Shown here piece after piece: positions 10,806-62,568 of a DNA stretch of 64,000 bases. Within the stretch, counting starts at the first letter, position 1, and every line of letters starts with the position of its first letter. The position numbers were made by a program, and so were the translations under genes. The stretch is from Gemmatimonadaceae bacterium. Its GTDB lineage: Bacteria > Gemmatimonadota > Gemmatimonadetes > Gemmatimonadales > Gemmatimonadaceae. The notes under the pieces are model-generated. The model was given only the letters and a program-made list of their open reading frames with translations, was not told the origin of the DNA and made no database searches. Location of the stretch: positions 124,001-188,000 of the forward strand of contig DASXKV010000067.1 of NCBI GenBank assembly GCA_036496605.1. Reading direction: 5' to 3'.

Positions 10806-13800
10806 TCACTCGAGCTTGTCGAGCGCGCGGAGCGTTGCCGACGTCCAGACGCCGTCAGTGCGAGTGGACCGTGCCTGGAACTTGTACTTTCCGTCGCGCG
10901 ACTGACCGTTAGGCGCCGTCCAGGCGAGAAAGAACGTGAACTCCTGCGTCGCTTCGGTATCGCCGACTTTCGCGCGGTTGCCCTGCGCCGGTCGCGTGAG
11001 GTGAAAATTCGCCTCACTCGACCGGACCTTGTCGAGCAGCCACGCGAGATTGTTCTTATCGTCGGCCGACTCTCCGGCGATGAAGCCCGACAGCTGACGG
11101 GCATCGTGGTTGGTAATCGCCGCGGCGAAACGCGCCGCTGCGTTCATGAGTGCGGAGGGAGCATCGCCGAAGGTCACAGCCTTCGCGCTCACCGTAACCG
11201 CGACGCGCGCCGTTTGCTGTTCGCTCGTCGCGACGATTTCCGTCGTTCCCGCGGCATGCGCCGTGACAACACCGAAATTGTCGACCGATGCGATTTCAGG
11301 GTGCGTCGACTGCCACGTCACCTTGTGATCGAGCAGCGACTGGCCCTTGGCGTCGAGCGGGGCGGCGGTGACTCTGATCGTGTCGCCCGGGTGCAGCGCG
11401 GACTTCACTTCCGTCATCAAGATCTGCGCAACGGCAGCCTTTCCCGGGACCACGGCATTGCCAGCCTGGATAACGCGGAGCTGAGTCGTACCGGTCGCCC
11501 CGTTTGCCCTACCGGTGATGGTCGCCGAGCCTTCTTTGAGCGCGATGATTCGTCCGGTGCGCTGATCAACCCGAGCAATGCGCGGCGCGCTGGAGCTCCA
11601 CACGATAGCGCTGACCGGTGCCTTCGGATCGCCAGCCACTTTTGCGCGCAGCAGGGCAGTGTCGCCAACGCGTAGCGGCTTGAGCGGCGTGATCGTGAGC
11701 TTCGTGCTGATCGACGTCGATGAATCCGCCGCCGCCGGGACAGTGTGCTGTGTGTCGACAGCCGCGGGTGCCGTGTCCGGCTTCTGTTGCGGCATGGTGT
11801 CCGCGATCGCCCCCTGCGATGCGGCAACCAGTTGCTGCTGTTCGGGCGCGCTCTTGCCTGACGAGAGCCGCCAGGTAATCAACGCCAACACGAGCACGGC
11901 CGCACCCGCGGCAGCAAGCCGCTTTGTGCCGATGCGCTCGATGAACGCAAAGCGATTGTTACTCGCTCCGGCGAGATCCATGTACGTCGGACCGCTGACC
12001 GATTGCCAGGGTTCGGTCGCAACCGGCGCTACGCTCTCCTCGGTGGCTTCCGCGTCGATGGTGGACTCTGTCGGCGCGACGACTTCGGCGCTCGGCTCCT
12101 CGACGCCCGCATCGTTGTCCGAGAGATGTGGAACCGGTACCGCGAGCGCCTCCTCGTCCGTAGGCTCCGGAATCGCGCGAAGACTCGCGATCGACGCGCG
12201 CGGATCGCTCTGGGCGAGCAATCGGCGCGCCTCCTCCAGCTCGAACACCTGGGTCGCGGAGACGTCGCCGAACGGTAGTGCCAGCTCCGGCGGCGGATTC
12301 ACGTGAAGACGGACCGACGCTTCGATGCCGTCGGCGGTTGCGGTGATCGTCGCCCGGCCCTCGCGGAGCGGGAGCACGACGCCCTTGGCGTCGACCGATG
12401 CGACATTGGGCGGCTCGGCTTTCCAGTGGAGCGGGCGATCGATGCGGACTCCGCGCGCGCTGACGACTTCGGCGTGAAGCGTCACTGGCAGACCGAGGTC
12501 GACGTGCGGTGGCGGCGGCTCGATGAGTATCTTCGCAACGACGGGCAGGACGATTGCGACGGCTGCCGTCGCAAGCTTGCCCTCGGAATTGCACGTCAGC
12601 CGCGCGACGCCCGCACTGCGCGCCCGCACGACGCGATCGCCGATGATCTCGGCGATCGATGAATCGCTCGAGCTCCATCGCACAGGTCGCCCGTCCAGCA
12701 CCTCGCCACTCGCGTCGAACATCTTGGCCGAGAGCTCGGCGGACTCGCCGACTTCGAGGACGGAGGGGACGACCGGCTGTACGCTCACGACTGGCGCCGG
12801 TGAGACCTCGATGCGCGCCATAGCGCGAACGCCTTGCGACTCGGCCCAGACGAGCACCTCGCCTGGCGACTTGGCCGAAACCACTCCTTCCTGGGAAACG
12901 ATGGCGATGGCTTCGTCGGCGCTCGCCCAGTGCACTGCGGTCTGGACGGCTTCGTGTCGCTTGTCCTCCGGCGTCGCGACGAGCTGGACGCGGTCGCCCG
13001 CGTGCAGCGCACCCGGCGGGAGAGAAACGCTGATCGTCGCGACGCGCTTCGGCACGACGGTCAACCGTACCTCGTTATGCACGCCGCCGACGCTCGCGGT
13101 GATCTGCACTTCGCCAGCGCTGATGGCCTGCACCGTGCCGCGCGCGTCGTCGACCGTCGCCACGGCGTCGTCACTGGACATCCAGCGGAGCCGGACGCCA
13201 GGCACTGTGTCGCCCGACGGATTTCGCGGCGACCCGGAGAGCGTGAAGGTGTCGCCAACCTCGACGATGCTCGGCGGTGCGAAAATCTCGACCGCGGCGA
13301 CGTATGGCTTCACGTCGCCTGGCGACTTCACTCCCGACGCGGGCTCCGGGGTCGCGCTCGCGCCCGGGCGGAGCACCTCATCCGAGCGGCGGAAGGGCGC
13401 GGGCATCGACAGCTGAGCCAGTGCAAGGCGGTCAGGATCGCCGTCGCCTAACGGCGAGGCACCCAAGGCGGCGAGCGCGTGCTGCACCGAGGGCCAGCGC
13501 TGCAGCGGGTCCTTGGCCAGCATGCGCTGAATCGCGGCGTCGAGCTCGGGGTCGCAATCGGGCCGCTGCTCGCAGATCGGCGGCGCGGGCCGCTCCGTGT
13601 GCGCATGCATAACGACGAACGGCGACCCACTGAAGGGCGGCCGTCCCGTGATCAGCTCGTAGGCGACGAGGCCAAGGGAGTACTGATCGGACGCGGCAGA
13701 TACCGGCCTCGCCAGGCACTGCTCAGGGCTCATGTACGTCGGCGTTCCGACAATGACGCCCGTTTGCGTCTCTCCGCCACGAGACGCGCGCGGAATGCTG

Positions 13801-14549
13801 GTATTCTCGCGCACCACGAGCTTCGCGATGCCGAAGTCGGTCACGACCCCGTTTCCGTCTTCGTCGATGAGGATGTTGGCCGGCTTCACGTCGCGGTGAA
13901 CGACGCCGCGACGATGCGCGTACGCAAGCGCGTTTCCGACCATCCAGAGCAATCCGCGTACGGTGCGAATGGGCAGTGCGCCCGCGGAACGGATCACGTG
14001 CTCGAGCGAGCGTCCCTCGACGAACTTCATCACGAAGAAGTGCAAGTCGTCGATCTGCCGGACGGCGTGAATGGTGATGATGTGCGGGTGGCTCATGTTG
14101 GCCACCGTAACTGCCTCCTGCCGGAAGCGACGCACCATTCCTTCGCCCGTGAGGAGGGCAGGGGACATCACCTTGATCGCGACCTTGCGATTGAGCGCGA
14201 CCTCGTGCGCCAGATACACGGCCGCCATGCCGCCACGGCCAAGCTCGCGGAGGATCTCGAATTCGCCCGATGTCGCGGCGCGTAGTCGCGCGGCGACTTG
14301 GCTCCAGGGATTTGCCTCATCGCCCGCCGCCTGGTTCGGGGAGACGATTCCGCTTTCGGTACCGGTGCGAGTACCGGTGCCGCAGCGGGGGCAGAAGCGG
14401 TCGGCTGCGCCGAGTGGGGCGCCGCAGCGTTCACAACCCGCGACGGGAGCGGCCGTTCCGCAGAGAGCGCAGAAGCGGTCGCCGGCCCTGAGTGGCTCGC
14501 CGCATCGGCTGCATTTGATTCCGGACGACTCCACGGGACGACCTGTCAT
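10806..14549 (-). CDS. Ser/Thr protein kinase with zinc ribbons, six Big2 repeats and NTF2-like tail
   Basis: A 1,247-residue protein. Two CxxC zinc ribbons lie at about 11-57, a Hanks-type kinase at about 97-360 with P-loop GRGGMAAVY, catalytic Lys126, HRD Asp220, DFG Asp238 and GTPTYMSPEQ. Four Big2 Ig-like repeats follow (about 400-740), then a linker, one transmembrane helix (876-895), two more Big2 repeats (about 945-1125) and an NTF2/SnoaL-like C-terminal domain. All key kinase residues are present. The frame is open to 14660, but the ATG at 14549 starts directly before the zinc ribbon and is preferred. If the single helix is real, four Big2 repeats are cytoplasmic and two extracytoplasmic. 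Stands alone; substrates unknown. Confidence 0.85.
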   Translation of the reverse strand: MTGRPVESSGIKCSRCGEPLRAGDRFCALCGTAAPVAGCERCGAPLGAADRFCPRCGTGTRTGTESGIVSPNQAAGDEANPWSQVAARLRAATSGEFEILRELGRGGMAAVYLAHEVALNRKVAIKVMSPALLTGEGMVRRFRQEAVTVANMSHPHIITIHAVRQIDDLHFFVMKFVEGRSLEHVIRSAGALPIRTVRGLLWMVGNALAYAHRRGVVHRDVKPANILIDEDGNGVVTDFGIAKLVVRENTSIPRASRGGETQTGVIVGTPTYMSPEQCLARPVSAASDQYSLGLVAYELITGRPPFSGSPFVVMHAHTERPAPPICEQRPDCDPELDAAIQRMLAKDPLQRWPSVQHALAALGASPLGDGDPDRLALAQLSMPAPFRRSDEVLRPGASATPEPASGVKSPGDVKPYVAAVEIFAPPSIVEVGDTFTLSGSPRNPSGDTVPGVRLRWMSSDDAVATVDDARGTVQAISAGEVQITASVGGVHNEVRLTVVPKRVATISVSLPPGALHAGDRVQLVATPEDKRHEAVQTAVHWASADEAIAIVSQEGVVSAKSPGEVLVWAESQGVRAMARIEVSPAPVVSVQPVVPSVLEVGESAELSAKMFDASGEVLDGRPVRWSSSDSSIAEIIGDRVVRARSAGVARLTCNSEGKLATAAVAIVLPVVAKILIEPPPPHVDLGLPVTLHAEVVSARGVRIDRPLHWKAEPPNVASVDAKGVVLPLREGRATITATADGIEASVRLHVNPPPELALPFGDVSATQVFELEEARRLLAQSDPRASIASLRAIPEPTDEEALAVPVPHLSDNDAGVEEPSAEVVAPTESTIDAEATEESVAPVATEPWQSVSGPTYMDLAGASNNRFAFIERIGTKRLAAAGAAVLVLALITWRLSSGKSAPEQQQLVAASQGAIADTMPQQKPDTAPAAVDTQHTVPAAADSSTSISTKLTITPLKPLRVGDTALLRAKVAGDPKAPVSAIVWSSSAPRIARVDQRTGRIIALKEGSATITGRANGATGTTQLRVIQAGNAVVPGKAAVAQILMTEVKSALHPGDTIRVTAAPLDAKGQSLLDHKVTWQSTHPEIASVDNFGVVTAHAAGTTEIVATSEQQTARVAVTVSAKAVTFGDAPSALMNAAARFAAAITNHDARQLSGFIAGESADDKNNLAWLLDKVRSSEANFHLTRPAQGNRAKVGDTEATQEFTFFLAWTAPNGQSRDGKYKFQARSTRTDGVWTSATLRALDKLE

Positions 14550-14990: not shown

Positions 14991-17243
14991 ATGAATCACG
15001 AAATAATCAGCCGCTATATCCGCCAGCCTACCCAGCTCCCGAACGAGCTGCGCGCGCGCATCGAGCTGGCGTGGGACGCAGAGCCAGTCCGCCTGTACGC
15101 ACTCGCCGACCTGGATCAGGGGCTCACGCTGGGCGAGACCTGGATGACGTTAGGCAACCGGCACGTGGCGATTGCGCGGACGGCACCGAGCGGCGTCTGG
15201 GAGGTGCAATCCATCGAGCGCACGCGGATCCGCGCCGTACAGCTGTCACCGGGGCTCAGCGCGAACGTGCTGCTGCTCCTCGGTGAGCCCAACGATGCCC
15301 CGCTGGCGATGGTACGCTACACGCAGCGACAGCGCGGTGCCTTCGAGAACATCCGGTTCGTGCTCGAGGAGTCGATCGCCGGCCGGATCGTCACTCCGAT
15401 GCCGGAAGAGGCCGACCGCGTTTATGCGGACGCGGTCGCGCGGCCCGTGCGCGATGCACAAGCGCTGGTCGCTGGGCGCGAGTCGGCGGTGATCCTTCGC
15501 TTGCTCGGGTACCTCGCGCCCTACGGTCGCCAAGTCACGATCGGTTTGATCGCCGCGGCCATTGTGACGTTGGCCAGCCTCGTGCCGCCGTACCTTGCGG
15601 GATTTCTGCTCGACAAAGTCGTTAGGCCTGCGCAAGCGGGCACGCTCGCGCATGCACAGGCGGTGCGGCTGGCGTGGCTTGCCGTCGGCGCGATGGCGCT
15701 GCTCTATGTCGTGCGCCAGGGCGCCGCGCACATGCGTCTTCGCTTGATGTCAGTCCTGGGGGAGTGGGTCGCGCGCGATCTGCGCTCCGAGCTGTACTCG
15801 CACATTCAGCGCCTCAGTCTCTCCTTCTTCTCTCGCAAGAAGACGGGAAGCCTGATCACGCGCGTCACGGCGGACACCGATCGCCTGTGGGAATTCATCG
15901 CCTTCGGCGTCGTCGACGTGTCACTGTCGGCAGTGATGTTGCTCGGCCTGGGCGTCGTGCTGCTCACGCTCGACTGGAGGCTCGGTCTCGTGATGACCTT
16001 ACCCGTGCCGCTGTTCTGTTGGCTGATCTACTGGCACGGCGAATCGCTCAACGGGCGATTCATTCGGGCCTGGCGAAAGTGGTCGCGGCTGACGGATGTG
16101 CTCGGCGACACCATCCCGGGCATTCGCGTGGTGAAGGCGTTCAATCAGGAAACGCGCGAGATCGGCCGCTTCGTCGATCGCAATGACGCGGTCACGGACG
16201 AGTTCAACCAGATCCACCGGATGTGGACCACCTTCTGGCCGCTGCTGATGTTCGCGGTGCACACGACGACGGTGGTCGTGTGGGTGTTCGCGGTGCCGCG
16301 CTTGTTAGGCATCGGCCAGCCATTGTCCGCCGGCGTGTTTGTTTCCTTTTTACTCTACACCACGATGTTCGTGGCGCCGATCGAAGTCATCGGCCAGATG
16401 GTGCGGACAGTAAATCGGGCAACTTCATCCGCGCACCGAGTCTTCGAAGTACTCGACAGCGAGCCGGAAGTGCGCGACATCCCGGATCCGGTGCGGCTCT
16501 CGCCAGTGCGCGGGCGCGTCGAGTTCGAGAATGTGACGTTCGCCTACGACGGCGTGCGTCAGATTCTTCGCGGCGTGAGCTTCATCGTGGAGCCGGGCGA
16601 GTTGATCGGACTCGTCGGACAGTCGGGCGGCGGCAAGTCGACGGTCGTGAGCCTGGTCGCGCGTTTCTACGATGCGACGGGCGGCGCCGTACGCGTCGAC
16701 GGCGTCGATCTGCGCACGATCGACACGGGCCACTACCGGGAGCAGATCGGCATCGTGTTGCAGGATCCGTATCTGTTCCACGGTACGGTGCTCGAGAATA
16801 TTCGGTACGGCTTGCCGAGCGCGTCGTTAGGTGCGGTGATCGCGGCGGCCAAGGCGGCGAACGCGCATGACTTCATCTGTAAGCTCGGGCAGGGCTACGA
16901 TACGATCGTTGGCGAGCGTGGGCACACGCTCTCGGGCGGCGAGCGCCAGCGCATCTCGATTGCGCGGGCGATTCTGCACAATCCGCGCATTCTCATTCTC
17001 GACGAAGCCACGAGCAGCGTCGACACCGAGACCGAGCGACAGATCCAGGAGGCGTTGGAGCGACTGATCAAAGGGCGAACCGTGTTTGCGATTGCTCACC
17101 GGCTGTCGACGCTCCGTCGTGCATCGCGGCTGTTCGTGATCGAGAAAGGCCGCCTGGCCGAAGCAGGAACGCATCGCGAATTGCTCGGGAAGCCTAACGG
17201 TATTTACAAGCGACTGTATGAGATGCAGTTGCAACTGCAATGA
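14991..17243 (+). CDS. ABC exporter (permease-ATPase fusion) of the cyanophycin-associated type
   Basis: A 750-residue half-transporter. Residues 1-150 form an extra N-terminal soluble domain, followed by six transmembrane helices (about 185-470) and an ATPase domain with Walker A GQSGGGKST, signature LSGGERQRIS, Walker B ILILDEATS and the switch His in IAHRLST. A GTG at 14928 is in frame but lies inside the terminator stem, so the ATG at 14991 is used. The stop overlaps the start region of the following DUF1854 gene. This ABC-DUF1854 pair is, from memory of protein-family naming, associated with cyanophycin metabolism in other bacteria; no cyanophycin synthetase or cyanophycinase is in this window, so the substrate is open. 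Confidence 0.85.
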   Translation: MNHEIISRYIRQPTQLPNELRARIELAWDAEPVRLYALADLDQGLTLGETWMTLGNRHVAIARTAPSGVWEVQSIERTRIRAVQLSPGLSANVLLLLGEPNDAPLAMVRYTQRQRGAFENIRFVLEESIAGRIVTPMPEEADRVYADAVARPVRDAQALVAGRESAVILRLLGYLAPYGRQVTIGLIAAAIVTLASLVPPYLAGFLLDKVVRPAQAGTLAHAQAVRLAWLAVGAMALLYVVRQGAAHMRLRLMSVLGEWVARDLRSELYSHIQRLSLSFFSRKKTGSLITRVTADTDRLWEFIAFGVVDVSLSAVMLLGLGVVLLTLDWRLGLVMTLPVPLFCWLIYWHGESLNGRFIRAWRKWSRLTDVLGDTIPGIRVVKAFNQETREIGRFVDRNDAVTDEFNQIHRMWTTFWPLLMFAVHTTTVVVWVFAVPRLLGIGQPLSAGVFVSFLLYTTMFVAPIEVIGQMVRTVNRATSSAHRVFEVLDSEPEVRDIPDPVRLSPVRGRVEFENVTFAYDGVRQILRGVSFIVEPGELIGLVGQSGGGKSTVVSLVARFYDATGGAVRVDGVDLRTIDTGHYREQIGIVLQDPYLFHGTVLENIRYGLPSASLGAVIAAAKAANAHDFICKLGQGYDTIVGERGHTLSGGERQRISIARAILHNPRILILDEATSSVDTETERQIQEALERLIKGRTVFAIAHRLSTLRRASRLFVIEKGRLAEAGTHRELLGKPNGIYKRLYEMQLQLQ

Positions 17244-17746: not shown

Positions 17747-17840
17747 AAAAGGGGCTAGGGTCTAGGGGCTAGGGTCTAAGGGGAGCAAGACCCTAGCCCT
17801 AGCCCCTCGTCCCCTAGCGCCTCGTCCCCTAGCCCCTTTT
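17747..17840. terminator. Bidirectional terminator made of iterated CTAG words
   Basis: AAAAGGGGCTAGGG (17747-17760) and its exact complement CCCTAGCCCCTTTT (17827-17840) bound a spacer built from GGGGCTAGGGTCTA repeats and then CCCTAGCCC repeats. The A-run and T-run make it look like a terminator on both strands, and it fills the gap between the convergent DUF1854 and sthA genes to the base. Confidence 0.75.
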
Positions 17841-19227
17841 ACAGTCGATTCAAGCCCGCCAGCGCCGCCACCTTGTACGCTTCCGCCAACGTCGGATAGT
17901 TGAACACCGTGTCCCGGAAGTATTCGATCGTTCCGCCGAACGCGAGCACCGCCTGCGCAATGTGAATCAGCTCGGCGGCGCCGTCGCCGATCGCGTGTAC
18001 GCCTAACAAGAGGAGCGTCTCGGGATCGAAGAGCATCTTGAGCAGCCCCGTCTCGTCGCCGAGGATCTGGCCCTTCGCGAGCTCCTCATACTTCGCGATC
18101 CCGACTTCGTAAGGGATGCGTGCAGCTGTGAGCTGTTGCTCGGTCCGTCCGATCATCGACATCTCCGGCACCGTGTAAATCCCGTACGGAAGAAGCTCCG
18201 CCGCGGCGCGGCGATGATTGCCACCGAACATATGATTGCTCGCGAGCCGGCCCTGCTCGCTCGACGACGAGGCGAGCGAGGGGAAGCCGATGACGTCGCC
18301 CGCGGCGTAGACGTGCGGCACCGACGTTCGAAAGTTCTCATCGACGGTAATTCGGCCGCGAGGGTCTGCCTCGAGACCGGCAGCCGCGAGGTCGAGGAGG
18401 TCGGTATTTGGCTGGCGGCCGACGGTGTAGAGCAACGCGCCCCCGTGCACGCGTTTCCCACTCTCGAGATGCGCGACGACACGACCCTGCGGCTCGCGTT
18501 CGACGCGCGTCACCGTCTCACCAAGACGGAACGTCGCTCCTCGGCGACGCATGTGATAGCTCAAGGCCTCGATCATCTCGCGGTCGACGAAATCGAGCAA
18601 CGCTGGACGTTGATCGATGATCGTGACCTTGATGTCGAGCGCCGTGAGCATCGACGCGTATTCGAGTCCGATGACGCCCGCGCCGACGACAATGAGCTCA
18701 CGCGGCAGATCGGGCACGTCGGGCAGTTGATCGGAGTCGAAGACGAAGCGCCCGTCGAGTGGAATCTCTGGCGTACACGCGGACCGCGTACCACACGCGA
18801 TGAGAATATGCGCACCGCTGACCCGAATGACGGGCGCGTTCTCGGGGACCACCTCGATCGTGTGGGGATCGATGAAGCGGGCGGTGCCGATCAGCGAGGT
18901 GACGCCGTTCCGCCGCAACTGATTCCGAACGACCTCGACCTCACGCTCGACCACGCGCTGAACCCGATGAGCGAGGTCGCGCGCGGAGATATGATCGCTG
19001 ACGACGTAGTCCTTTCCGTAGAACGTCCGCTGCCGGAATCCCGAAAGGTAGAGAATTGCCTCGCGGAGCGTTTTGCTCGGAATAGTGCCGGTGTGAACGC
19101 ACACGCCGCCCGTCATCTCGCGTCGGTCGACGACGGCGACTCGCTTGCCTAGCTTCGCCGCCGCGATCGCGCCCTTCTGTCCCGCGGGACCGCTCCCGAT
19201 GACGACGAGGTCGTATTCGTATTCCAT
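17839..19227 (-). CDS. sthA: Soluble pyridine nucleotide transhydrogenase
   Basis: A 462-residue flavoprotein. It has the FAD-binding GSGPAGQKGA motif at about 11-20, the family-specific GTIPSKTLREA stretch with a single Cys (GVCVHTGT) instead of the CxxxxC redox pair of lipoamide dehydrogenases, an NAD-binding GAGVIGLEY near 180-190, a second FAD segment VYAAGDVIGFPSL and a dimerisation domain. SthA exchanges reducing equivalents between NADPH and NAD in the cytoplasm. The lone Cys and length separate it from lipoamide dehydrogenase and mercuric reductase. The stop codon abuts the bidirectional terminator, and the gene is probably monocistronic. Confidence 0.9.
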   Translation of the reverse strand: MEYEYDLVVIGSGPAGQKGAIAAAKLGKRVAVVDRREMTGGVCVHTGTIPSKTLREAILYLSGFRQRTFYGKDYVVSDHISARDLAHRVQRVVEREVEVVRNQLRRNGVTSLIGTARFIDPHTIEVVPENAPVIRVSGAHILIACGTRSACTPEIPLDGRFVFDSDQLPDVPDLPRELIVVGAGVIGLEYASMLTALDIKVTIIDQRPALLDFVDREMIEALSYHMRRRGATFRLGETVTRVEREPQGRVVAHLESGKRVHGGALLYTVGRQPNTDLLDLAAAGLEADPRGRITVDENFRTSVPHVYAAGDVIGFPSLASSSSEQGRLASNHMFGGNHRRAAAELLPYGIYTVPEMSMIGRTEQQLTAARIPYEVGIAKYEELAKGQILGDETGLLKMLFDPETLLLLGVHAIGDGAAELIHIAQAVLAFGGTIEYFRDTVFNYPTLAEAYKVAALAGLNRL

Positions 19228-34384: not shown

Positions 34385-34528
34385 CATCCTGACCGACGCG
34401 AAGGATCTGCTTTTGGACCTCTCAGACCATCGCTGGCTCCGTCGCGGCCGCGTTCAACCCAGTAAATGATTGCTGCCGAGACGAAGCCAGCGATCCTTTG
34501 AGAGATCCAAAAAGCAAAGAGCAGATCG
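34385..34528. repeat. TCATCCTG-class long imperfect inverted repeat
   Basis: After TCATCCTGA (34385-34393), the arm 34405-34438 pairs imperfectly with 34487-34528: GATCTGC with GCAGATC at the outer ends, CTCTCA with TGAGAG in the middle and ATCGCTGGC (34430-34438) with GCCAGCGAT (34487-34495) inside. The stem is about 35-40 bp with a 48-base loop, like a small palindromic mobile repeat. It occupies most of the 200-base gap before the kinase gene. Confidence 0.65.
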
Positions 34529-45495: not shown

Positions 45496-45580
45496 GGAAC
45501 GGCAGGCCCAGCCTAACGCGTGACCGTTCCTCGCCCCTCGTCCTGAATCCCTAGCCCCTATTCTCTAGCCCCTAGCCCCT
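45496..45580. repeat. Hairpin plus iterated CCCCTAG words
   Basis: GGAACGG (45496-45502) pairs with CCGTTCC (45524-45530) right after the acyltransferase stop, with a GCCTAACG word in the loop. Repeats of CCCTAGCCC then run to 45580, six bases before the racemase ATG. The word set matches the 17747-17840 terminator. It may reduce read-through from the acyltransferase into the racemase. Confidence 0.5.
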
Positions 45581-45586
45581 CCTTCC

Positions 45587-57383: not shown

Positions 57384-57561
57384 CCGTCTCGAACTCGTCT
57401 TTGAGACGGGTTTCAACTGTTCTCAACACGGACACGGCCGGACACGCGCGGACACCGCCGGACAACAGAAAGAAACCGTGAACAGCTTTTTCAGAAGATC
57501 GTCGACGCCCTTTGGTCGTGTCCGGCCGTGTCCGCGCTGTGTCCGGCTATGTCCGTGTCCG
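57384..57561. repeat. Inverted array of CGGACAC words with 10-base period, plus hairpin
   Basis: In the 461-base gap 57186-57646, otherwise empty, CGGACAC/CGGACAA recurs at 57429, 57439, 57449 and 57459, exactly every 10 bases with three variable bases between. After a 52-base spacer the complement GTGTCCG recurs at 57518, 57528, 57539, 57549 (ATGTCCG) and 57555. A separate hairpin, CCGTCTC (57384-57390) with GAGACGG (57403-57409), sits before it. The architecture matches the 61 kb array with a different word. Confidence 0.75.
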
Positions 57562-59875: not shown

Positions 59876-60620
59876 GCAGCGCGCCGAGTATCTCCTCCGC
59901 CTCGGCGACGACCGGCTCGTGCTCGGTCATCGCCTGTCGGAGTGGTGCGGTCACGCGCCCATCCTCGAGGAGGACATCGCGCTCGCGAACATCGCGCTCG
60001 ATCTCGTCGGTCAGGCGACGCTGCTGCTCGGCCGCGCCGGCACGGTCGAAGGGAAGGGACGCGACGCCGACGCGCTCGCCTATCTGCGCGAGGCGGTCGA
60101 GTTTCGAAACGCATTGCTCGTCGAGCTCCCCAAAGGTGACTTCGCGCTCACGATCGTTAGGCAGCTCTTCTTCGGCGTCTTCGTACTGCTGCAGGCGGAA
60201 GCCCTTCAGAAGAGCACCGATCGCGATCTCGCCGGCATTGCGGCGAAGGGCGTGAAGGAATCGCGCTATCACGTGCGCCACAGCGCCGATTGGGTCGTGA
60301 AGCTCGGCGCCGGCACGGAGGAGAGCCATGCGCGCACGCAACGCGGCGTCGACGACCTCTGGCGCTATACCGGCGAGCTCTTTCTCGCCGACGACGTCGA
60401 CCGCGCCGTTGCCGCCGAGAGCTTCGGCGTCGATCCGTCGACGTTGGAGAGCGCCTGGCAAGCGACGGTACGAGACGTTCTCTCCCGCGCCGGCCTAACG
60501 ATTCCCGCCACTACCTACATGCAGCGCGGCGGACGCGAGGGCCGGCACACCGAGCACCTCGGCCACATGCTCGCCGAGATGCAGATCGTCGCACGCTCGC
60601 ACCCGGGAGCGTCATGGTGA
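59859..60620 (+). CDS. paaC: Phenylacetyl-CoA epoxidase subunit C
   Basis: A 253-residue protein beginning at GTG (59859), overlapping paaB by 17 bases; no ATG lies between there and the conserved EYLLRLGDDRLVLGHRLSEWCGHAP. Helical ferritin-like fold without a full di-iron set, as for PaaC, with DLWRYTGELF near 180 and a late EGRHTEHLGHMLAEMQ helix. It is the structural partner of PaaA. Its end overlaps the paaD start by 7 bases. Confidence 0.9.
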   Translation: MASKSEQRAEYLLRLGDDRLVLGHRLSEWCGHAPILEEDIALANIALDLVGQATLLLGRAGTVEGKGRDADALAYLREAVEFRNALLVELPKGDFALTIVRQLFFGVFVLLQAEALQKSTDRDLAGIAAKGVKESRYHVRHSADWVVKLGAGTEESHARTQRGVDDLWRYTGELFLADDVDRAVAAESFGVDPSTLESAWQATVRDVLSRAGLTIPATTYMQRGGREGRHTEHLGHMLAEMQIVARSHPGASW

Positions 60621-61123
60621 GCGCAGGCGCCTCGAGCCGAGACGAGATCTTCGCGATCCTCGATGAGGTAAAGGATCCAGAGGTGCCGGTGCTGAGCGTC
60701 GTCGAACTCGGCATCGTGCGCGATGTCGCGGTCGACGGGTCGGCGGTGACGGTCACGATCACTCCGACGTATTCGGGCTGCCCGGCAATGCGCGTGATCG
60801 AGGAAGAGATCAGGGCCGCGCTCGAAGCTCGGGGGCTGTCGCCGGTGCGACTCGAAACGGTATTCGCCCCGGCCTGGACGACGGAATGGATGAGCGCCGA
60901 CGCGAAGCGAAAGCTCGCCGCCTACGGCATCGCACCACCCGGCCGGGCGCGTGAGGAGTCGCTCGTTAGCCTCACGCGTGCGCCGGTCGTCGAGCGAGTG
61001 CCATGCCCCTACTGTGGCTCGCGGGACACGGAAGTGCGAAGCGAGTTCGGCTCGACGGCGTGCAAGTCGATCGCATACTGCCGTACATGCGCGCAACCGT
61101 TCGAAGCGTTCAAGGCGATTTGA
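60614..61123 (+). CDS. paaD: PaaD-type iron-sulfur/maturation protein of the epoxidase
   Basis: A 169-residue protein. The N-terminal MIP18-like (DUF59) domain has DEVKDPEVPVLSVVELGIV and TPTYSGCPAM with its conserved Cys; the C-terminal zinc-ribbon-like part has CPYCGS and CRTCAQPFEAFK. PaaD is needed for assembling the epoxidase, probably for cluster insertion. Starts within the paaC end (ATG at 60614). The usual next gene, paaE reductase, does not follow; instead a large inverted repeat array begins 26 bases after the stop. Confidence 0.9.
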   Translation: MVSAGASSRDEIFAILDEVKDPEVPVLSVVELGIVRDVAVDGSAVTVTITPTYSGCPAMRVIEEEIRAALEARGLSPVRLETVFAPAWTTEWMSADAKRKLAAYGIAPPGRAREESLVSLTRAPVVERVPCPYCGSRDTEVRSEFGSTACKSIAYCRTCAQPFEAFKAI

Positions 61124-61148: not shown

Positions 61149-61584
61149 GGCGCGTCGAGAGAGGCGCGTCGAGAAAGGCGCGTCGAGAAAGGCGCGTCGA
61201 GAGGGGCGCGTCGAGAAAGGCGCGTCGAAAAGGGCGCGTCGAGAAAGGCGCGTCGAAAAGGGCGCGTCGAAAGAGGCGCGTCGAAAAGGGCGCTGACCAA
61301 CAGAGCGGAGAGCCTCGAGCGGCGAGTCCTCAGCCGGGAGTTGAGTTGAGCTGGGGGTTCCGGCTGTGAGAGCTTCGAGCTGAGAGCTCGTAGTTCGGCG
61401 CTGGTCTCGACGCGCCCCTTTCGACGCGCCTTTCTCGACGCGCCTTTCTCGACGCGCCCCTCTCGACGCGCCCCTCTCGACGCGCCCTTTTCGACGCGCC
61501 CTTTTCGACGCGCCTTTCTCGACGCGCCCTTTTCGACGCGCCTTTCTCGACGCGCCCTTTTCGACGCGCCCCTCTCGACGCGCC
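61149..61584. repeat. Inverted array of a 14-base unit, 10 plus 13 copies
   Basis: The 479-base gap 61124-61602 between convergent paaD and a lipoprotein gene is filled by this array. Left arm: GGCGCGTCGA plus a purine tetramer at exactly 14-base steps from 61149 to 61275 (10 copies). Right arm: the complement TCGACGCGCC at 14-base steps from 61407 to 61575 (13 copies). All 23 decamers are identical; only the tetramer varies, mostly GAAA, AAAG or GAGG. The 110-base spacer has GAG/CTC-rich words (around 61368-61392). A stem well over 130 bp is possible. Confidence 0.9.
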
Positions 61585-61602: not shown

Positions 61603-62568
61603 TCACCGCTCGACCAGGACCAGCCACTTGCTCCCTCTCCAGAACCCCTCGGGATCGCGTATGTGCAAACTTCCGCGGAACGTCCCGTCCGCGCTCAGCT
61701 TCGTCTCGAGCGCGGAGGTACTCTGTGGAGACAGGATCTGATACTCGCGCCCTTCCTCGAGCTTGATCACGCGACTTCGCATGTGCCCCACCGTGAAGTG
61801 CGTGCTGTCGCGGATGTCGGAAGGTTGCAGGATACGTCCCCACCCGGTGACCGGCACGCCGCCGACTTCGCGCGCGAGGTGCCAATCGACGAGCTGCTTG
61901 CGGGTCCCGACGACGTAGTAGACCGTGCTGTCGCGCGCCGCGTCGGCGGTAATCACAGCCGTTAGGCGCTCATTCTCGTCGTGCAGTACGCGCGAGTACG
62001 TCGTCAGCGAATCGACCTGGTGCTGGAGATCGTCCAGGCGCATGCGAAGGTCGGCGACCAGCACGCGCACGCTGGCAAGGGCCGTGCGGCTCGAGTCGCG
62101 TTCGGTGCCGCTGGCGAGGGCGCTGTCCGCGCTCGCACGCACGCTGTCGCGCAACGCCGTCAGCACCCGTCCCTGACGCTCGGCCGCCGCCTCGAGACGC
62201 GCCAACCGCAGCCGCGCCGACCGGGCCTCGGTCAGAATGTGCGACCGTTCCGATTCGACGCTCGATAGCGGATCTTCGTGCGGATCCAGCGCGCCTGCTT
62301 CCTGCTGCAGCGTTCTAATCTTGCGAAACTCCGATTGCAGCTGCTCCATGAAGTAGTCGAACCCGTGGATCTCGCGAACCAGCAGGTCCTTCTCCATGGT
62401 CTGCCGCTCGGTGACGCCGCGAATCACGCGCAGCGACTCGTCGAGCGCCGCGTTGCGCAATCGGAGAATCATGGCATCGCCGGCGGCGCTGTCGCTGATG
62501 CTCGCTCCGTGTGATTCCGCACACGAGCCCAGCACCAGCAACCACACGAGCCCCTTCAATCGCTTCAT
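61603..62568 (-). CDS. Coiled-coil lipoprotein
   Basis: A 321-residue lipoprotein starting at the ATG at 62568 (signal ending in VLGSC). Residues 40-215 are almost wholly helical with heptad-like Leu/Arg spacing, forming long coiled coils; the end (about 215-321) is a compact beta domain opening with TVYYVVGTRKQLVDWHLA. A similar coiled-coil plus YYVIGT domain layout occurs in Bacteroidota surface lipoproteins. The start overlaps the stop of the P-loop NTPase gene by four bases, so they are coupled. No enzymatic motif; a structural or anchoring role is likely. Confidence 0.72.
   Translation of the reverse strand: MKRLKGLVWLLVLGSCAESHGASISDSAAGDAMILRLRNAALDESLRVIRGVTERQTMEKDLLVREIHGFDYFMEQLQSEFRKIRTLQQEAGALDPHEDPLSSVESERSHILTEARSARLRLARLEAAAERQGRVLTALRDSVRASADSALASGTERDSSRTALASVRVLVADLRMRLDDLQHQVDSLTTYSRVLHDENERLTAVITADAARDSTVYYVVGTRKQLVDWHLAREVGGVPVTGWGRILQPSDIRDSTHFTVGHMRSRVIKLEEGREYQILSPQSTSALETKLSADGTFRGSLHIRDPEGFWRGSKWLVLVER

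Follow-up and report, generated by a model that had tools for sequence, protein, structure and literature searches.

An inverted array of 14-bp units in a Gemmatimonadaceae genome belongs to a dispersed repeat family, some copies of which bear 23S_rRNA_IVP genes

The array and its setting

The window analysed here is a 64,000-nucleotide stretch of a Gemmatimonadaceae genome, taken at its full length. It includes, on the + strand, a gene for a PaaD-like protein (60614..61123; Zn_ribbon_PaaD and FeS_assembly_P domains, with matches to PF23451 and PF01883), which is preceded by a PaaA_PaaC gene, and, on the - strand, a gene without a Pfam match (61603..62568) that has an ortholog in the congener G001. 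The two genes are convergent, and between their stops lies an array of short repeats (61149-61584) that begins 25 bp past the stop of the PaaD-like gene and ends 18 bp short of that of its right neighbour. The array is thus located between two protein genes and outside any 23S rRNA gene.

The array comprises 23 units of 14 bp, 10 direct and 13 inverted, each made up of the decamer GGCGCGTCGA, which is exact in 23/23 units, and a variable tetramer. The left arm (61149..61288, + strand) holds 10 tandem copies, the exact decamers of which start at 61149, 61163 and so on up to 61275, and the right arm (61403..61584, - strand) holds 13 tandem copies in the inverse orientation, with decamers starting from 61407 to 61575; both arms keep a strict 14-bp period. 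These positions bear out the unit counts, the perfect period and the unchanged decamer claimed in the earlier note on this DNA, and its description of the tetramers as purine-only, save in the copy nearest the spacer, is likewise accurate: the words are GAGA, GAAA, GAGG, AAAG, AAGA and AAGG, with GACC, the sole non-purine word, found only in the spacer-adjacent copy. Tandem Repeats Finder scores the arrays at 213-275, and the window holds one further copy of GGCGCGTCGA outside it, at 16513. The array lies within the contig, yet its exact copy number may be wrong, since many contigs of this assembly break at such arrays.

In their best register the two arms are complementary at 91% over 150 nt. 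Folded as DNA, the array region yields a z-score of -20, with none of the shuffled sequences folding equally well, and in the RNA fold 131/140 bases of the left arm have a partner in the right; both results support the long hairpin that the earlier note had offered as one reading. The spacer (61289..61402) is an imperfect palindrome without a notable ORF, and in particular no PF05635 ORF is found in its ~118 nt. Searches of the window with Rfam and a tRNA scan gave no matches. At high identity the spacer recovered only itself from the genome, and we accordingly rejected it as a genome-wide repeat; a plasmid origin was also rejected, as a DNA search against plasmids gave no match.

A dispersed intergenic family

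In the genome we counted 191 occurrences of the dimer pattern of GGCGCGTCGA and none of its reversed form. Using a 66-bp array query and the regions fetched with it, we resolved these occurrences into about 27 sites, every one of which is intergenic by the gene calls, and wherever both arms are visible their order is always + arm, spacer, - arm. The pattern is absent from the 40 relatives searched; in other species its exact form was met in 24 stretches with one match each, which we treated as chance. The array in the window is therefore one member of a dispersed family, some copies of which bear genes for an IVP, the kind of protein known from 23S rRNA intervening sequences (IVS). As had been suggested, the predicted hairpin does stand at the end of the paa operon here, but this placement is not a rule, since the genes on either side of sibling sites may be convergent, tandem or divergent.

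The decamer is likewise invariant in the window array but not genome-wide, being exact in 238/323 units of the family; 33 others have AGCGCGTCGA and 17 have GGCGCGGCGA. Free variation of the decamer in close relatives, which the earlier note had named as counting against its reading, was not seen: the array is missing from the relatives, and few positions differ among its sibling copies. Over the 323 units, each decamer position carries 1.4-2.0 bits of information as against 0.6-1.0 for the tetramer, and hence the conservation of the decamer is not merely a product of local homogenisation; at the level of sequence, it would fit recognition of the unit. The tetramer words, on the other hand, are local to each site, and the left and right arms share words at the window site and on contigs C16 and C35. 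Arm similarity is higher within a site than between sites (mean cosine 0.28 vs 0.17 after shuffling, p = 0.019), an effect driven mainly by these three sites. Together, the site-local tetramers and the likeness of the two arms support the recent expansion proposed earlier.

Two kinds of spacer can be distinguished. Type A, found at six sites including the window, is a palindrome built around GAGCTGTCAG, and the window spacer aligns loosely with the other five; type B has a hairpin of the form GGGCGC..GCGCCCGATTTCC, followed at some sites by a T-rich stretch. The arrays also leave a mark on the assembly: 16 contigs have an end at or close to a GGCGCGTCGA array (C5, C6, C10, C19, C32, C40, C45, C46, C48, C49, C50, C52, C54, C55, C58 and C60), which indicates that the assembler was unable to pass many of them and makes this family one of the main causes of breaks in the assembly.

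Comparison with G001 indicates what the array adds to this locus. In the congener the same convergent gene pair is present, with stops only 6 bp apart (TAA CTGACA TCA) as against 479 bp here, so the window array lies within lineage-specific extra DNA. At the site on C16, where a sibling copy bears an IVP gene, G001 lacks both the arrays and the gene. A presence/absence difference at orthologous sites, as looked for in foldback transposons, is hence seen at two sites, at neither of which was a target-site duplication apparent by eye. On this comparison, the simplest reading is a lineage-specific gain of the arrays, the alternative being loss in G001.

Several other repeats occur in the window and beyond. 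A second inverted array (17748-17842), with a 7-bp unit around TAGGGGC, lies between two convergent genes; copies of this unit are found at many places in the genome and also on either side of the IVP gene at C4:41507. A third (57424-57561), with the 10-bp unit CGGACACGGC, lies between two - strand genes and has a similar array at C4:28265-28376, and a short CCTAGCCCC array (45529-45581) sits between two + strand genes. A separate inverted repeat of 46 nt (34411-34512; 80% complementarity, 10-nt loop) is unrelated to the arrays. On contig C4, we further noted a non-coding element (13640-13910 of region L103) with a 17-bp unit, which resembles the unit of the IVP locus on C59, and an outer 12-bp inverted repeat (AAAGTGATACCA/TGGTATCACTTT).

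IVP genes between inverted arrays

On C16 a gene matching PF05635 (23S_rRNA_IVP) and TIGR02436 (four helix bundle protein) lies between two GGCGCGTCGA arrays, and there 166/179 arm bases are paired in the RNA fold; on C10 a PF05635 gene lies beside one such array at the contig start. The genome encodes 11 IVP genes, 8 of which have matching inverted flanks on both sides; for the C10 gene only one side is visible, and it carries an array, while the other two genes have none. The units of the 8 flanked loci are diverse: they include the heptamers GGGCGAC, GTAGAGG, GGTGGTT and TAGGGGC, the 14-mers GGCGCGTCGAGAAG and GGCGCGCGAGGAAC and a 17-mer, in addition to which there is one long plain inverted repeat. 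The units at C10, C16 and C15b are near-identical 14-mers, and their IVPs look like one subgroup. That array units follow the IVP phylogeny overall was rejected (Spearman 0.00), with only the C10/C16 pair clearly sharing both. The IVP gene is the only cargo seen in the GGCGCGTCGA family; no transposase, nor any other enzyme that cuts or joins DNA, was seen in any copy.

To compare loci, we counted the 10-mers of the left flank that recur, reverse-complemented, in the right flank, with a cut-off of 10; both the measure and the cut-off were picked after the first cases in the genome of the window, and relatives and plasmids served as further sets. Among the relatives, matching inverted flanks occur at 25/40 IVP loci as opposed to 4/307 control genes from the same contigs (Fisher p = 9e-24), and random positions reach the same cut in 48/2487 cases. 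The flanks of these loci show periodicity peaks at 7, 14, 21, 28 and 35, of which 7, 14 and 21 are the commonest. On named complete plasmids of cyanobacteria, Azospirillum and Riemerella, 10/15 IVP genes pass the cut and several others have a short version of the arrays, whereas in two 50-kb control stretches only 3/486 positions lie above it. Heptamer inverted flanks also accompany the IVP gene of a Bacteroidetes MAG (L219). The association of IVP genes with inverted arrays of short repeats is thus general, spanning several bacterial phyla.

The association has exceptions, as the arrays are absent or weak at about one third of the IVP loci. A Polyangia MAG (G066; L221, L227, L243-L247) has about 12 weak-scoring IVP genes, several of which adjoin long arrays with a period of 6, 12 or 14 that are direct and not inverted. 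Certain IVP genes of cyanobacterial plasmids (L249, L250, L254 and L258) lie inside operons, for instance between cas6 and cas4, between cas10 and cmr3 or, on pNe_5, between the two genes for ribonucleotide reductase; most of these IVP genes have heptamer arrays.

The arms also have a constant polarity: read inward, they carry more G than C in 42/43 IVP loci with matching arms (p = 1e-11). A search for elements blind to the presence of IVP genes recovered the same trend, with inward G-rich arms in 25/28 elements; in 638 kb this search found 12 elements, and none after block shuffling. The convergent GGGAATC pairs of Xanthomonas have the same G-rich-inward polarity (PMC4692102).

IVP genes and heptamer arrays were each known before; among the open-licence PMC papers that we searched we found none linking IVP genes with inverted heptad arrays, though an earlier description elsewhere is possible.

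Proposed nature of the element and its known counterparts

On balance, we favour the view that the array in the window is one of the non-coding copies of an IVS-like insertion element of the foldback type, dispersed over the genome. Such an element ends on either side in a tandem array of one short unit, the two arrays being inverted relative to each other; between them lies either a short palindrome, as in the window, or, as in sibling copies, a gene for an IVP (PF05635), a four-helix bundle that has been described as Avd-like. The IVP or a partner could recognise the arm unit, nearly always G-rich inward, on folded-back DNA or RNA; acting in trans from a coding copy, it would allow non-coding copies to be copied into intergenic DNA as well, and the window copy was probably mobilised in this way by its IVP-bearing siblings. 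The putative function of the hairpin would come with transcription, when the arms could form one long duplex that RNase III might cut, such that insertion between genes would be tolerated. The number of units may change locally by slippage and by copying between the arms. Counting against this view are the lack of an IVP gene in the window copy and of a DNA-cutting or DNA-joining enzyme in every copy seen, the independence of unit sequence from IVP phylogeny, and the IVP loci with weak, absent or direct arrays.

Four other explanations deserve consideration. The arrays could be large bidirectional terminators or 3'-end processing hairpins under host selection, in which IVP genes merely lodge. 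The very stable hairpin of the window array, the convergent genes at the window, C41 and C44 sites, and the resemblance of type B spacers to a hairpin followed by a T-rich stretch all speak for this. However, these three are the only convergent sites among those with both neighbours known, the rest having tandem or divergent neighbours, and roughly half of the adjoining gene ends face an array, which is the chance expectation; the orientations of the sites thus led us to reject a convergent-gene terminator as a general rule. The window array also departs from the canonical intrinsic terminator, a GC-rich hairpin with a T-run, as no T-run follows its stem (CTTATAGG on the + strand, CTCATGCTCTC on the - strand), and G001 does without such a hairpin at the same convergent pair. 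Since the IVP association in several phyla is left unaccounted for as well, we consider this explanation unlikely. Quite improbable, in our estimate, is an origin in place by tandem slippage and hairpin template switching, without dedicated mobility and with IVP genes preferring to insert at the result. The fast turnover of unit sequences between loci agrees with it, as do the site-local tetramers common to both arms at three sites, which need slippage together with arm-to-arm copying; but independent origins cannot account for one 14-mer, with spacers that align, recurring at about 27 unrelated loci, and slippage does not produce a constant G-rich inward polarity.

Selection could instead have spread the decamer as an array of sites bound by a nucleoid protein or a regulator of the host, an explanation close to the binding sites raised in the earlier note. 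Its genome-wide conservation is in keeping with this, and heptamer arrays have been proposed to be regulator sites in Geobacter (PMC2700814) and G-quadruplex elements in Xanthomonas (PMC4692102). We nevertheless give such selection little credence: this genome holds several unrelated units built into the same architecture, the decamer lacks a run of three G, and the IVP link stays unexplained. Finally, next to no weight can be given to the idea that a Y1 (RAYT) transposase moved the arrays as REP/BIME-like palindromes. The scatter of palindromes between the genes of a single genome does recall such elements; however, the units are not single short palindromes, and the 97%-complete genome has no match to Y1_Tnp (PF01797), which control genomes do match. 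For want of a Y1 transposase, we rejected this enzyme as the mover and did not class the feature as REP/RAYT.

The foldback-type insertion element favoured here may have a wider counterpart. More tentatively, and as somewhat less likely than not, IVP genes with inverted heptad arrays could constitute a widespread, unrecognised class of bacterial mobile elements, which lack a known transposase, move via folded-back DNA or RNA and are the source of many reported heptamer arrays, such as the cyanobacterial STRR and the Xanthomonas GGGAATC pairs. The heptamer arrays of cyanobacteria and xanthomonads and the IVPs of 23S IVS and cas loci have until now been separate puzzles, to both of which there would be one testable answer, namely that IVP elements have these arrays as their ends. 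The link places a widespread protein family, the function of which is not established in the literature cited here, in a genomic context, predicts non-coding copies moved in trans and accounts for the breaks that such arrays cause in draft assemblies.

In Xanthomonas, GGGAATC heptamer arrays are dispersed, intergenic and often in convergent pairs, and Nostoc heptamer arrays are described in the same study, which found no general tie of the Xanthomonas arrays to mobile elements (PMC4692102). These arrays share their distribution, frequent inversion and inward G-rich strand with the family described here, but have a 7-bp unit with G tracts instead of 14 bp without them, and no link to IVP was reported for them; elsewhere in the genome studied here, other IVP-associated families do have 7-bp units. 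The cyanobacterial STRR heptamers and the Beggiatoaceae TAACTGA repeats are also dispersed, mostly intergenic tandem heptamers, but are described as direct, with proposed regulatory roles and no IVP link (PMC4679880). 23S_rRNA_IVP genes have been reported between cas genes, with a CRISPR-related role proposed for them (PMC3936711); we see such genes in cas loci on three cyanobacterial plasmids, where the flanking arrays suggest insertion instead. PF05635 has been described as similar to Avd of diversity-generating retroelements, with 4DWL and 2GSC being alignable (PMC10053308), whereas no reverse transcriptase or template repeat was noticed beside the loci here, though not in a systematic search.

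Two further counterparts come from eukaryotes and from rRNA genes. Eukaryotic foldback transposons have long inverted ends of short tandem repeats, a variable centre and non-coding copies. Such ends are also those of the window array; these transposons, of which Tm1 is an example (PMC3169594), are however eukaryotic and related to DNA transposases, a type of enzyme not seen in the family here. The 23S rRNA IVS, such as that of Coxiella burnetii, carry an IVP/S23p ORF and end repeats, have stems processed by RNase III and have been suggested to be mobile elements (PMC4990558). As in the sibling copy on C16 and, in part, that on C10, their PF05635 ORF lies between stem-forming inverted repeats, and their distribution is sporadic; the elements here differ in lying outside rRNA, in having stems of tandem short units and in that many copies are ORF-less, and the window feature itself is not classed as an IVS because it is outside rRNA and has no ORF. 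In its anatomy, the element thus resembles both an IVS and a foldback transposon.
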